A DNA stretch of 64,000 nt from Fibrobacter sp. (GTDB lineage: Bacteria; Fibrobacterota; Fibrobacteria; Fibrobacterales; Fibrobacteraceae): positions 62,001 to 126,000 of the forward strand of contig JAKSIJ010000005.1 in NCBI GenBank assembly GCA_024398875.1, written 5' to 3'. Position numbers and translations under genes: made by a program. Under the pieces are notes generated by a model. The model was given only the letters and a program-made list of their open reading frames with translations, was not told where the DNA came from and ran no database searches. Below, one piece after another: positions 47,837 to 50,498 of the stretch; position 1 is the first letter of the stretch, and each line of letters opens with the position of its first letter.

Positions 47837-47851
47837 TAGGAGGATATGAAA

Positions 47852-48346
47852 ATGAAAGACATTGCACATTCTATTAGTTTGTTAGTAGCCAACCGCCCGG
47901 GCGTTCTGGTGCGTATCGCCCTCGTGTTCTCCCGCCGCGGCTACAACATCGATTCTCTGGTGGTCTCCCCCACTCTGGACCCGAACTTCAGCCGCATGAA
48001 CATCATCGCCCGCGGTAATCCCGACATCCTGATGCAAATCATCAAGCAGTTGGAAAAGCTGGTGGACGTGGTGCAGGCGAAGGATCATACCGATACCAAC
48101 GCTGTGGAAAAGGAACTGGCCCTCATCAAGGTCCGCTGCGAACCTGAACAGCGCACCGAAATTCTCCAGCTCTGCGACCACTTCCACGCCAACACCGTGG
48201 ATATGACGGAACACTCCGTCATCGTGCAGATTACCGGCAACTCCATGAAGGTGGATTCCCTCAAGAGTCTCCTCCAGAAGTTCGAGATTGTGGAATACAT
48301 CCGCACAGGTAAAGTCATCATGCTCCGCGGTGAAGACAAAACCTAA
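47852..48346 (+). CDS. ilvH: Acetolactate synthase, small regulatory subunit
   Basis: 164 residues. It begins with an ACT domain (SISLLVANRPGVLVRIALVFSRRGYNIDSL) and ends with the IlvN/IlvH C-terminal domain (VEKELALIKV, IVQITGNSMKVDSL, EYIRTGKVIMLRG). It binds valine and confers feedback inhibition on IlvB. AGGAGG at 47838-47843 is 8 bases from ATG 47852 but only 2 from ATG 47846, so the second Met is the likely start. Confidence 0.95.
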   Translation: MKDIAHSISLLVANRPGVLVRIALVFSRRGYNIDSLVVSPTLDPNFSRMNIIARGNPDILMQIIKQLEKLVDVVQAKDHTDTNAVEKELALIKVRCEPEQRTEILQLCDHFHANTVDMTEHSVIVQITGNSMKVDSLKSLLQKFEIVEYIRTGKVIMLRGEDKT

Positions 48347-48371: not shown

Positions 48372-48419
48372 AAAAAGGCATACTATTCAGCATAAAATCG
48401 CAGATTAGTATGCCTTTTT
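48372..48419 (+). terminator. Long-loop terminator after ilvH
   Basis: AAAAGGCATACTA (48373-48385) pairs with TAGTATGCCTTTT (48406-48418) across a 20-base loop and ends in six T's. The arms belong to the TACTATT repeat family described for 48372-48586. Confidence 0.7.
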
Positions 48420-48586
48420 TGCATCAATTCTCTTTTGAGAAACACATAAAGATTGAAATAAGCATAATATTTGTCAAAAAAAAACAAATAGTACGTCAAT
48501 AACACGGTGTTGTGCGCCAATAATGTACAAACAAATTAACAAAATACGTACTATTTACGCAAAAAACAACGAATAGTACGCCTTTC
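48372..48586. repeat. Inverted-repeat cluster with TACTATT core
   Basis: AAAGGCATACTATTC (48375-48388) and GAATAGTACGCCTTT (48571-48585) form a 15-base inverted repeat with one mismatch, about 211 bases apart. Three more copies of the core lie between: TTAGTATGCC (48405-48414), AAATAGTACGT (48486-48496) and ACGTACTATTT (48546-48556), the last two being exact inverse copies. No coding frame. MITE-like or operator-like. Confidence 0.6.
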
Positions 48587-48628: not shown

Positions 48629-49135
48629 CTACCACTTGGCCAAGGCGTTCGTAATAATCAAGTCCTGAAGTTTCTCAATGGCACGAGCCTGACCATGGCG
48701 GTCTTCGGTCTCGTTCTTCTGCACATCGTAGGTTCCATCAGCCGAGAGCGATTTGGACTCGTAGATAATCTTCTCTTTCACATTATCGTAGAACTTCACA
48801 CTCACGCGAATAGTTACGCGGTAGGTTTCCACATCACTACTGCTGTTGTAGTTTTCCGGCTTATTGGTGTAGCTCAACAGGGTGATTTCAAAATCGGCAT
48901 TTGCCTCTTCGTTCACCAGACGAACGCTTCCGGCATTTTTCCGGAACATGTCCACTACAGCCGTGTGAATGTCATTAGCCAACACCGGATCCAAGGTTTT
49001 ATCTTCTACCTCATGAATCTGGACTGTTTTGATATGGCTGGGGAGCGTACTTGCCGTAAAACTGTAGCAGCCAAACAAACAGGAGGCCACAGCGGCGAAC
49101 AGAACGGCAAAAAGACTTTTACGCAACAAACCCAT
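48629..49135 (-). CDS. lptE: LptE-like lipoprotein (LPS assembly)
   Basis: 168 residues. A lipoprotein signal (MGLLRKSLFAVLFAAVASCLFGC, lipobox LFGC) is followed by YSFTASTLPSHIKTVQIHEVEDKT, which matches the start of LptE/LpsD-like proteins (Y.f.g.slp..iktv.V..f.N.t) that plug the LptD pore. The C-terminal LIITNALAKW is also typical. TATATTTGT (49147-49139 on the minus strand) ends 3 bases before the ATG without a Shine-Dalgarno. The distant upstream starts lie beyond this promoter, which supports ATG 49135. Confidence 0.75.
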   Translation of the reverse strand: MGLLRKSLFAVLFAAVASCLFGCYSFTASTLPSHIKTVQIHEVEDKTLDPVLANDIHTAVVDMFRKNAGSVRLVNEEANADFEITLLSYTNKPENYNSSSDVETYRVTIRVSVKFYDNVKEKIIYESKSLSADGTYDVQKNETEDRHGQARAIEKLQDLIITNALAKW

Positions 49136-49138
49136 ACC

Positions 49139-49186
49139 ACAAATATAAATAAATCCTACCCTTCCCGCCATTTTTACTACATTTGA
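49139..49186. promoter_or_regulatory. Divergent promoter boxes between lptE-like gene and serS
   Basis: TATATTTGT (minus, 49147-49139) faces the lptE-like gene and TACATTTGA (plus, 49178-49186) faces serS. serS has a 25-base leader with AGAGG, while the lptE-like gene has only 3 bases between box and ATG. Confidence 0.55.
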
Positions 49187-49211
49187 GCCGTAAATTTCAA
49201 AGAGGCATAAA

Positions 49212-50498
49212 ATGCTTGACATTAAGAAAATCCGTGAAAATCCGGAATATTATATTGCAGAAACCGAAAAGAAATACACTACCGTGAGCCTGAAGGACGT
49301 CCTCGCCATCGATAACGAACGCCGCCCCCTCCTCACCGAAGTGGAACGTTTGAAGAGCGAACGCAACGCCGAATCCAAGCGCATCGGAGAATTGAAGAAG
49401 AAAGGCGAAAATGCGGATGAAGCCGTGGCCGCCATGCGCGCTCTGGGCGACAAGATTGATGAACTGGACAAGCAGCTCAAGGACCTGGACTACAAACAGA
49501 CCGAAATGCTCATGCATGTGCCAAACATCGCTCCCCGCTCTCCCGAAGGCAAGGATTCCAGCGACAACGTCGTTGAAAAAGATGGTCCTATTCCCTTTGA
49601 CTTCTACACCAAGAATGACGATTTCGCCCGCGTAGACCACAAGACTTTGGGCGAACGCCTTGGCATTTTCGATTTCGAACGCGGGGCCAAGATTTCTGGT
49701 TCCGGTTTCCCGGTGTATCGCGGTCTCGGCTCTCGCCTGGAACGCGCCCTCATCCAGTTCTTCCTGGACGAACACCAGAAGGCCGGCTTCGAGGAATTCA
49801 CTCCGCCATACCTCGTCACCCGCAACACCATGCGCGGCACAGGTCAGCTCCCGAAGTTTGAAGAAGACATGTACCGCTGCGACAAGGATGACGACCTGTT
49901 CCTCATTCCTACGGCAGAAGTTCCTCTGACAAACCTCTACTCCGGCGAAGTGATTCCCGAATCCGAACTGCCCAAGCGCATCTGCGCCTACTCTGCCTGC
50001 TTCCGCCGCGAAGCTGGCTCCTACGGCAAGGACACCCGCGGCCTTCTCCGCCTCCACCAGTTCAACAAGGTGGAAATGGTGTACTTCGCCCATCCGGAAC
50101 GCTCTTACGAAGACCACGAGGAACTGACCCGCTTCGGCGAAATGCTTCTCGAAAAGTTGGGCCTTCCCTACCACCGTCTCGCCCTCTGCAAAGGCGACCT
50201 CGGCTTTGGCGCTGCAAAGTGCTATGACCTTGAAGTCTACGCCCCTGTGGAAAAGAAGTGGCTCGAAGTTTCTTCCTGCTCCAACTTCGAAGACTACCAG
50301 GCCCGTCGCGCAAATATCAAGACCAAGATTGGCGGAAAGAACACCTTCGTCCACACTCTGAATGGTTCTGGCCTCGCCACTCCGCGCGTGATGGTGGGCA
50401 TCTGCGACAACTACCAGCAGAAGGACGGCTCTCTCTTGATTCCTGAAGTGCTGCGCCCCTACATGGGTGGCATGGAAAAAATTGAGCCGAAGCGCTAA
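49212..50498 (+). CDS. serS: Seryl-tRNA synthetase
   Basis: 428 residues. An N-terminal two-helix coiled coil (about 30-100) recognises the long variable arm of tRNA-Ser. The class II catalytic domain has FEEFTPPYLV, LFLIPTAEVPLTNLY, motif 2 AYSACFRREAGSYGKDTRG and motif 3 ATPRVMVGICDNYQ..DGS with IPEVLRPYMGG. Length and order are standard. A terminator follows 28 bases after the stop. Confidence 0.97.
   Translation: MLDIKKIRENPEYYIAETEKKYTTVSLKDVLAIDNERRPLLTEVERLKSERNAESKRIGELKKKGENADEAVAAMRALGDKIDELDKQLKDLDYKQTEMLMHVPNIAPRSPEGKDSSDNVVEKDGPIPFDFYTKNDDFARVDHKTLGERLGIFDFERGAKISGSGFPVYRGLGSRLERALIQFFLDEHQKAGFEEFTPPYLVTRNTMRGTGQLPKFEEDMYRCDKDDDLFLIPTAEVPLTNLYSGEVIPESELPKRICAYSACFRREAGSYGKDTRGLLRLHQFNKVEMVYFAHPERSYEDHEELTRFGEMLLEKLGLPYHRLALCKGDLGFGAAKCYDLEVYAPVEKKWLEVSSCSNFEDYQARRANIKTKIGGKNTFVHTLNGSGLATPRVMVGICDNYQQKDGSLLIPEVLRPYMGGMEKIEPKR

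Follow-up and report, generated by a model that had tools for sequence, protein, structure and literature searches.

The window, by which is meant the whole stretch of DNA that was analysed (64 kb), carries at positions 48372-48586 three inverted-repeat pairs, hereafter dyads, which form a gene-less or 'solo' array in the gap between two convergent genes. The left-hand gene is one that we take to be ilvH, following the name in an earlier note on this sequence, and the right-hand gene is a lipoprotein-like ORF which the same note called 'lptE-like'. The half-sites of the dyads have the sequence GCRTACTATT or the variant ACGTACTATT, the left arm of dyad 2 being degenerate; they are held apart by spacers of 16, 15 and 16 nt, and the dyad centres lie 83.5 and 84.5 bp from one another. 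From left to right the features are as follows.

47846-48346, + strand: ORF, presumably ilvH, left neighbour, convergent with the right neighbour
48372-48586, no strand: solo three-dyad array, with dyad centres at 48395.5, 48479.0 and 48563.5
48374-48387, + strand: dyad 1, left half-site AAAGGCATACTATT (pattern search, alignment)
48388-48403, no strand: dyad 1, spacer, 16 nt
48404-48417, - strand: dyad 1, right half-site, one mismatch; may also serve, together with the left arm and the T run, as ilvH terminator
48462-48471, + strand: dyad 2, left half-site GCATAATATT, degenerate (by eye; centre from the motif-free array detector)
48472-48486, no strand: dyad 2, spacer, 15 nt, a base shorter than the other two (by eye; centre from the detector)
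48487-48496, - strand: dyad 2, right half-site AATAGTACGT
48524-48544, + strand: box TGTACAAACAAATTAACAAAA, just inside dyad 3 (by-eye similarity)
48546-48555, + strand: dyad 3, left half-site ACGTACTATT (pattern search)
48556-48571, no strand: dyad 3, spacer, 16 nt
48572-48585, - strand: dyad 3, right half-site AATAGTACGCCTTT (pattern search)
48629-49222, - strand: ORF, lipoprotein-like, right neighbour

The outer arms had been described as inverse copies of one another, and indeed 48374-48388 (AAAGGCATACTATTC) agrees with the reverse complement of 48571-48585 (AAAGGCGTACTATTC) at 14 of 15 bases; equally, 48486-48496 and 48546-48556 are, as claimed, exact 11-base inverse copies. The count of 'three further' copies of TACTATT/AATAGTA inside the outer pair was slightly generous, since two exact copies and two imperfect ones lie there: exact copies stand at 48381, 48487, 48549 and 48572 (n=4), and the imperfect inner ones are ATTAGTA at 48404 and TAATATT at 48465. 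The earlier note had also held that a lack of other copies, together with unconserved arms, would point to chance in AT-rich DNA. Further copies and conservation of the arms were both found, and chance is ruled out by an excess of the motif (TACTATT occurs 10 times in the window against 2.6 expected), by a pattern search of the genome with controls, and by a motif-free array detector, for which this is the sole array detected across the 64 kb. Moreover, all three occurrences of GTACTATT in the entire window lie inside 48372-48586. The repeat cluster is a copy of a scattered three-part DNA signal.

One of the pairs had been assigned to the ilvH terminator. This is plausible for dyad 1, given its strong RNA fold (-22.3 kcal/mol, z -7.7) with a U run directly after it. 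A stable hairpin followed by a T run is found at dyad 1 only, and a simple terminator accounts for dyad 1 at most; dyad 3 can adopt two other single-strand folds, both weaker. A search of Rfam gave no family, its single match falling below the gathering score (E 0.39).

Copies of the arrays in Fibrobacter genomes

The genome from which the window comes (G000; 2.78 Mb, 90 contigs, 99.3% complete) contains four arrays with the window motif, namely that of the window itself, one on contig C5 near argJ, one on C23 between typA and prfB, and one on C31, where argJ, typA and prfB are names that we presume from the neighbouring proteins. The C31 array lies between divergent ORFs and the remaining three between convergent ones. 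When the spacer is fixed at 16 nt and three mismatches are allowed, the pattern finds 11 sites in G000, against none for the reversed control; the twelfth dyad is dyad 2 of the window, whose 15-nt spacer places it outside the fixed-spacer pattern. The C23 array has its half-site variants in a different order, and the C5 array contains a sequence related to the box TGTACAAACAAATTAACAAAA, similar T/A-rich boxes being seen by eye in other arrays. Across the 24 seven-base cores of the G000 half-sites a hand recount gives 7 mismatches, such that decay of the arrays for want of a gene is not evident.

Among the 61 genomes of the genus, the motif occurs within three mismatches in 18, many of these at control level, and with at most one mismatch in G000, G021 and G058 only. 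The ilvH protein of G058 is identical to that of G000, yet G058 has no array at either ilvH or typA, and its argJ array is nearly unchanged: the G058 copy (L250, on C13) departs from that of G000 (L021, on C5) by two in-dyad differences, both ACGTAC to ACATAC, one in each of the half-sites with which dyads 2 and 3 face each other. The two are the same C-to-T type of change.

Dispersal in extragenic space is found for the two motifs surveyed, GCRTACTATT in G000 and TGCTACTAAA in G063 and G061. The second of these forms 24 dyads in G063, arranged as eight three-dyad arrays with spacings near 84 and 95 bp, alongside one gene of the family described below; in G061 the dyads number 21, again beside a single gene, and here one array is down to a single dyad while another has its middle dyad out of register. 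Other genomes hold 20 (G069), 9 (G054), 8 (G001), 8 (G006), 3 (G004) and 2 (G019) such dyads, which are present in 16 of the 61 genomes, a part of which was inspected.

Seven array pairs, six gene-less and one gene-linked, were taken as orthologous between G063 and G061, and for this one motif and species pair 29/546 positions have changed in the half-sites against 118/984 between them (P 1e-5), much of the change being supplied by two pairs with poorly conserved flanks (L293/L301 and L298/L304). The half-sites of these two species change 2.3 times more slowly than the intervening DNA, and gapped positions number 0 in the half-sites and 3 between them. Compared with one another, the eight paralogous arrays of G063 show identities of 49% in the flanks and 43% in the spacers, against 29% by chance, the shared sequence ending ~20 bp beyond the outermost dyads. 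Since the sharing extends beyond the half-sites, the eight arrays are probably old copies of one ~250 bp unit.

As for their location, eight of the 11 gene-less arrays (four in G000, seven in G063) lie between convergent genes, compared with a baseline of 25 of 81 gaps (P 0.005), where ORF calling was mechanical and some of the tested gaps also count in the baseline. A function as an operator for the neighbouring genes is therefore unlikely. Overall, the dispersed arrays appear to be kept by selection, mostly to avoid promoters (11 cases) and to come and go between close relatives.

Occupied and unoccupied counterparts could be compared in three cases (ilvH, typA, and L296 of G063 with L314 of G061), and showed neither a target duplication nor a clean empty site. 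In all three comparisons the whole spacer differs, and hence no insertion junction is readable. The unoccupied L314 (16536-16727) holds other sequence in its spacer, of the GTGACG..CATCCTGAGG..GAAGGATCC kind, and similar CATTCTGAGG stretches lie 3' of ilvH in L220 and L231, a hint that the genus has another family of dispersed repeats. Separately, G064 has four ACATACTA-type dyads (C26:113254, C26:134209, C26:322434 and C42:51687) whose spacers are nearly identical too, unlike those of the other arrays, and which are perhaps a younger or a different repeat.

A gene family with adjoining dyad arrays

The array behind typA in G021 additionally holds a 270-aa gene, and past this gene lies a fourth dyad, 90% identical to the third over 48 nt. 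Of 41 genomes searched, 14 contained matches to the protein, as did 41 of the genus's 61 (with 0 to 7 matches apiece), tallies which count G014, with a C-terminal match only, and the pieces of split genes. A scan of named genomes gave at least 579 relatives, the best 80 of which are from Fibrobacter, Treponema, Bacillota and one unclassified source, mostly rumen and gut as judged by titles. The first locus set comprised 36 of 40 rows, the four left aside being weak C-terminal matches at G014:C3 and G001:C37 and two rows for the second piece of a split gene; because it overlaps with the set of 80, the 116 loci are not independent and non-redundant counts (95% protein identity) are used. Viral contigs have nine loci that match mainly in the C-terminal part. 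In a tree built from 83 rows the phyla stay largely apart, with 4 changes against the least possible 2, and recent transfer between phyla is therefore not evident. Open-access PMC texts, going by their titles and the starts of their abstracts, yielded no paper on the family or its arrays.

The four arrays of G000 persist though no cognate gene for their motif was found in that genome, nor was one found in G058 (71% complete). The sole family gene found in G000, L110 (C1:87372-88202), is flanked by a pair of 214-bp direct repeats, 95% identical to each other, which carry a different, GC-rich inverted repeat.

The AlphaFold2 model of the protein (pLDDT 94.6, pTM 0.81) consists of a helix, beta-hairpin, helix domain followed by a PD-(D/E)XK domain. 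Its structural matches are I-Bth0305I (Z 8.8, rmsd 2.5, 89 aligned) and TnsA (Z 8.1, rmsd 4.0, 119 aligned), both just above the level that the tool calls common, and Vsr (Z 6.9, rmsd 3.6, 103 aligned). Foldseek gave no match at E 0.001 or below in the PDB, and four at E 0.001 or better among viral models, these being DUF2726-like, Gp28-like or unnamed. Conserved motifs RSKSE, PDF and WEH lie in the PD-(D/E)XK-like fold, and the catalytic residues (L121 numbering) are E169 in 115/115 sequences, D207 in 113/115, and E222 and H223 in 115/115, an E..D..ExH pattern that we take to be the EDxHD motif. On the strength of the predicted fold and these residues, the domain can be placed with the EDxHD/Vsr-like PD-(D/E)XK proteins. 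Searches of Pfam, NCBIfam and PHROGs revealed no family common to the members; the Pfam and NCBIfam matches are scattered, each in one of 26 members (best E 0.0027), with no transposase family among them. The C-terminus of the PADLOC model PDC-S68, approximately the last 125 of its 1221 positions, matches the nuclease domain in 26/26 members. Matches of the N-terminal part to the coils of prefoldin, Rad50 and TasH were set aside, being at the level that the tool calls common for helical pairs, and no relation to TIGR-Tas is claimed.

Arrays stand upstream of 65 of the 93 non-redundant family genes, and on either side of 69 of the 93. By group, the upstream arrays number 36/46 in Fibrobacter, 14/14 in Treponema, and 15/33 in Bacillota and others; seven loci with less than 450 bp of 5' flank are left out of these counts, as is L164, which has no intact ORF and was left out of the protein work also. 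Control segments 0.9-2.45 kb away contain arrays in 5 of 307 cases, two of which (L145 and L183) seem on visual inspection to be genuine arrays without a gene, and shuffled upstream regions (one shuffle each) contain none in 109. An earlier and stricter detector gave upstream arrays at 65/109 loci, against 0/95 control segments and 0/109 shuffles; both detectors take only dyads that are ~45 to 115-140 bp apart. No array is detected on either side of 24 of the 93 genes, 17 of them from Bacillota or other groups. Single dyads are missed by the detector, such that neither the G021 gene with the window's motif nor the family gene of G000 scores.

Of the two control loci, L183 (Butyrivibrio hungatei) has, ~1.84-1.91 kb upstream of its family gene, two TGACTAAA dyads of a different motif, 74 bp apart and between convergent ORFs, with no family gene adjoining among the ORFs listed. 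At L145 two TGCTAC-motif dyads lie ~2.31-2.40 kb downstream of the start of the family gene, the gene's own array being of GTGTTACCAAA. Elsewhere, at least seven dyads precede the gene of L126 (Clostridiaceae) at intervals of 74-75 bp, with similar spacers, making almost a tandem repeat.

Each gene tends to have half-sites of its own, which resemble those of its close relatives, as seen at 36 and then 80 loci, and conservation inside the elements peaks ~9-19 bp from the dyad centre. Over 68 elements, similarity of motif tracks similarity of protein (Mantel r 0.37, 0/1000 permutations), a correlation to which the common ancestry of linked DNA can contribute in part. When the protein is divided, the partial r is 0.23 (0/1000) for the N-terminal part and 0.09 (23/1000) for the other; the N-terminal part is thus the better correlated candidate for the determinant of specificity, if not decisively so. 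Direct repeats that contain dyads (61-335 bp, 80-98% identical) enclose the gene at 9 of 110 loci, a tally from which matches at L122 and L149, outside or barely overlapping the arrays, are left out. The layout looks as though array and gene together had been added to an array already in place; alternatively, recombination between the repeats could remove the gene.

The distances between dyad centres cluster at 62-66, 73-75, 83-86, 94-97 and 104-106 bp, the gaps between these being near-empty. Indeed, 138 of 143 spacings deviate by no more than 1.6 bp from a whole number (6 to 10) of 10.55-bp turns, where 30% would be expected, and when each element contributes one spacing the vector strength is 0.90 (59 elements); these statistics use spacings of 55-112 bp, a few others being found at 50, 53, 128 and 138 bp. 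The spacings in the window (83.5 and 84.5 bp) correspond to eight turns. This whole-turn spacing, which proteins aligned along one face would require, suggests that the dyads are protein-binding sites in double-stranded form, not RNA hairpins.

A proposed two-part system and its alternatives

The feature in the window is probably a gene-less copy of the array of a two-part system, made up of a nuclease-like protein and phased arrays of its cognate dyads. The first part would be a protein of ~270-300 aa that begins with a helical-hairpin domain and ends in a PD-(D/E)XK domain resembling Vsr, TnsA and I-Bth0305I; the second would be the arrays, often of three to five dyads, with gene-specific half-sites of ~10-12 bp and centres whole turns apart (mostly 6 to 10). 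There is good reason to expect that dimers of the protein bind each dyad and are aligned along the same face of the helix; the array 5' of the gene would then be its own operator. Each dimer would most likely contact its dyad via half-sites ~29 bp apart, neighbouring dimers would meet on that face, and an array ahead of the gene would serve autoregulation. More tentatively, the protein may also spread or maintain the dispersed arrays, the whole working like REPIN-RAYT with PD-(D/E)XK in place of the HUH transposase. The link to the gene family is strong, binding by the candidate protein is likely, and mobility is offered as a hypothesis. It is similarly possible, if doubtful, that these are a new class of two-part element in gut Fibrobacter, Treponema and Bacillota, in which a PD-(D/E)XK protein would propagate or maintain arrays of its own one-face binding sites, its specificity having diversified to dozens of half-sites of ~10-12 bp.

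The arrays might alternatively be fixed landmarks, by which an immobile set of sites lets a nuclease-fold regulator or nucleoid protein organise the chromosome or insulate convergent genes. The gene-less arrays are constrained and mostly at the same places in two species, they are few per genome and on different contigs, and eight of 11 lie between convergent genes, all as such a function would have it. Nonetheless it is unlikely, since the presence of arrays varies in close relatives (G058 lacks those of G000 at ilvH and typA), the genes are patchy (41/61 genomes, 0 to 7 matches) with many different motifs, and the catalytic residues are kept.

A further reading is that of a defence or toxin-like nuclease which the arrays, as decoys or self-marks, sequester until phage arrives, the gene-less arrays being leftovers or protection. 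The BstA protein has a cognate upstream DNA element, aba, and the logic here is similar; arrays occur both at the gene and elsewhere, and PDC-S68 matches in all 26 members. That match, however, spans only ~125 of 1221 positions, and this reading is improbable.

The earlier note had offered 'MITE-like or operator array'. Of this, the dispersed repeat (four arrays in the genome) and the look of operator sites, with helical phasing, have stood; an operator for the neighbouring genes is, as argued above, unlikely, and the case for a classical MITE, moved by an ordinary transposase via terminal inverted repeats, is weakened to the point of being very improbable. The eight G063 arrays are several copies with common, inverted ends, sharing sequence to ~20 bp past the outer dyads, but no target duplication or empty site is seen in three pairs, and the linked gene encodes a PD-(D/E)XK protein, no known transposase. 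Finally, it is hardly credible that the dyads act as RNA hairpins terminating or stabilising transcripts of the flanking genes, for which the strong fold and U run of dyad 1 and its position 3' of ilvH would speak, when dyad-dyad distances track the DNA helix (of which RNA hairpins have no need), arms vary independently (e.g. GGCA facing CGTA in dyad 2 at C5), arrays precede 65/93 family genes, and Rfam has no family for them.

The proposed two-part system matters in several respects. The family is unnamed, has no Pfam, NCBIfam or PHROG model, and spans three or more bacterial phyla, its hosts living mostly in the gut. A likely DNA target is written beside most of its genes, and sequence recognition by nuclease-type proteins is therefore testable across dozens of natural variants. 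It also accounts for intergenic inverted repeats that would otherwise be mistaken for terminators, and is a possible second, independent case besides REPIN-RAYT for the persistence of small palindromic repeats. If the reading as a new class of element is true, it would be a RAYT-REPIN analogue of independent origin with another enzyme, and would constitute a natural library of long-site DNA-binding nucleases.

Comparison with known systems

Operator arrays of autoregulators whose sites share one face of the helix are known, and the present arrays resemble them in having several dyads, whole turns apart and so placed, upstream of the gene of the probable binder. For binding by the encoded protein, the covariation of motif and protein is an indirect sign. 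They differ in that arrays of this kind are found without a gene as well, in most of the 11 cases examined between convergent genes. With I-Bth0305I, TnsA and Vsr the protein shares, according to its model, the C-terminal fold and the E..D..ExH residues, and it differs from them in being encoded by a free-standing chromosomal gene with upstream cognate arrays and in its helical N-terminal domain. The 9/110 loci at which direct repeats with dyads enclose the gene are compatible with a homing endonuclease, whose gene is copied into cleaved empty sites, without being proof of it. PDC-S68, a candidate defence protein of PADLOC, has the C-terminal nuclease domain in common with the family, over only ~125 of its 1221 positions.

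REPIN/REP doublets with their RAYT transposases have a gene beside its own cognate palindromic repeats, with the repeats dispersed extragenically (PMC3116915, PMC2817692). The likeness extends to one gene with adjoining cognate palindromic repeats, to extragenic dispersal, to several gene-repeat types and to their co-variation; indeed, the family genes do have their own cognate repeats (65/93 upstream, 69/93 on either side). The differences are that the protein here is a PD-(D/E)XK-like nuclease and there an HUH tyrosine transposase, that ~44 bp dyads in helix-phased arrays take the place of hairpin doublets, and that 1-8 arrays per motif and genome occur in the cases seen, whereas REPs usually number more than 100 per genome (PMC2817692). 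Although the dyads are able to fold as single strands, their helical phasing points to double-stranded DNA. REPIN-RAYT is thus the closest known logic, but its defining enzyme, the HUH/Y1 tyrosine transposase, is absent, and the present system is therefore not a member.
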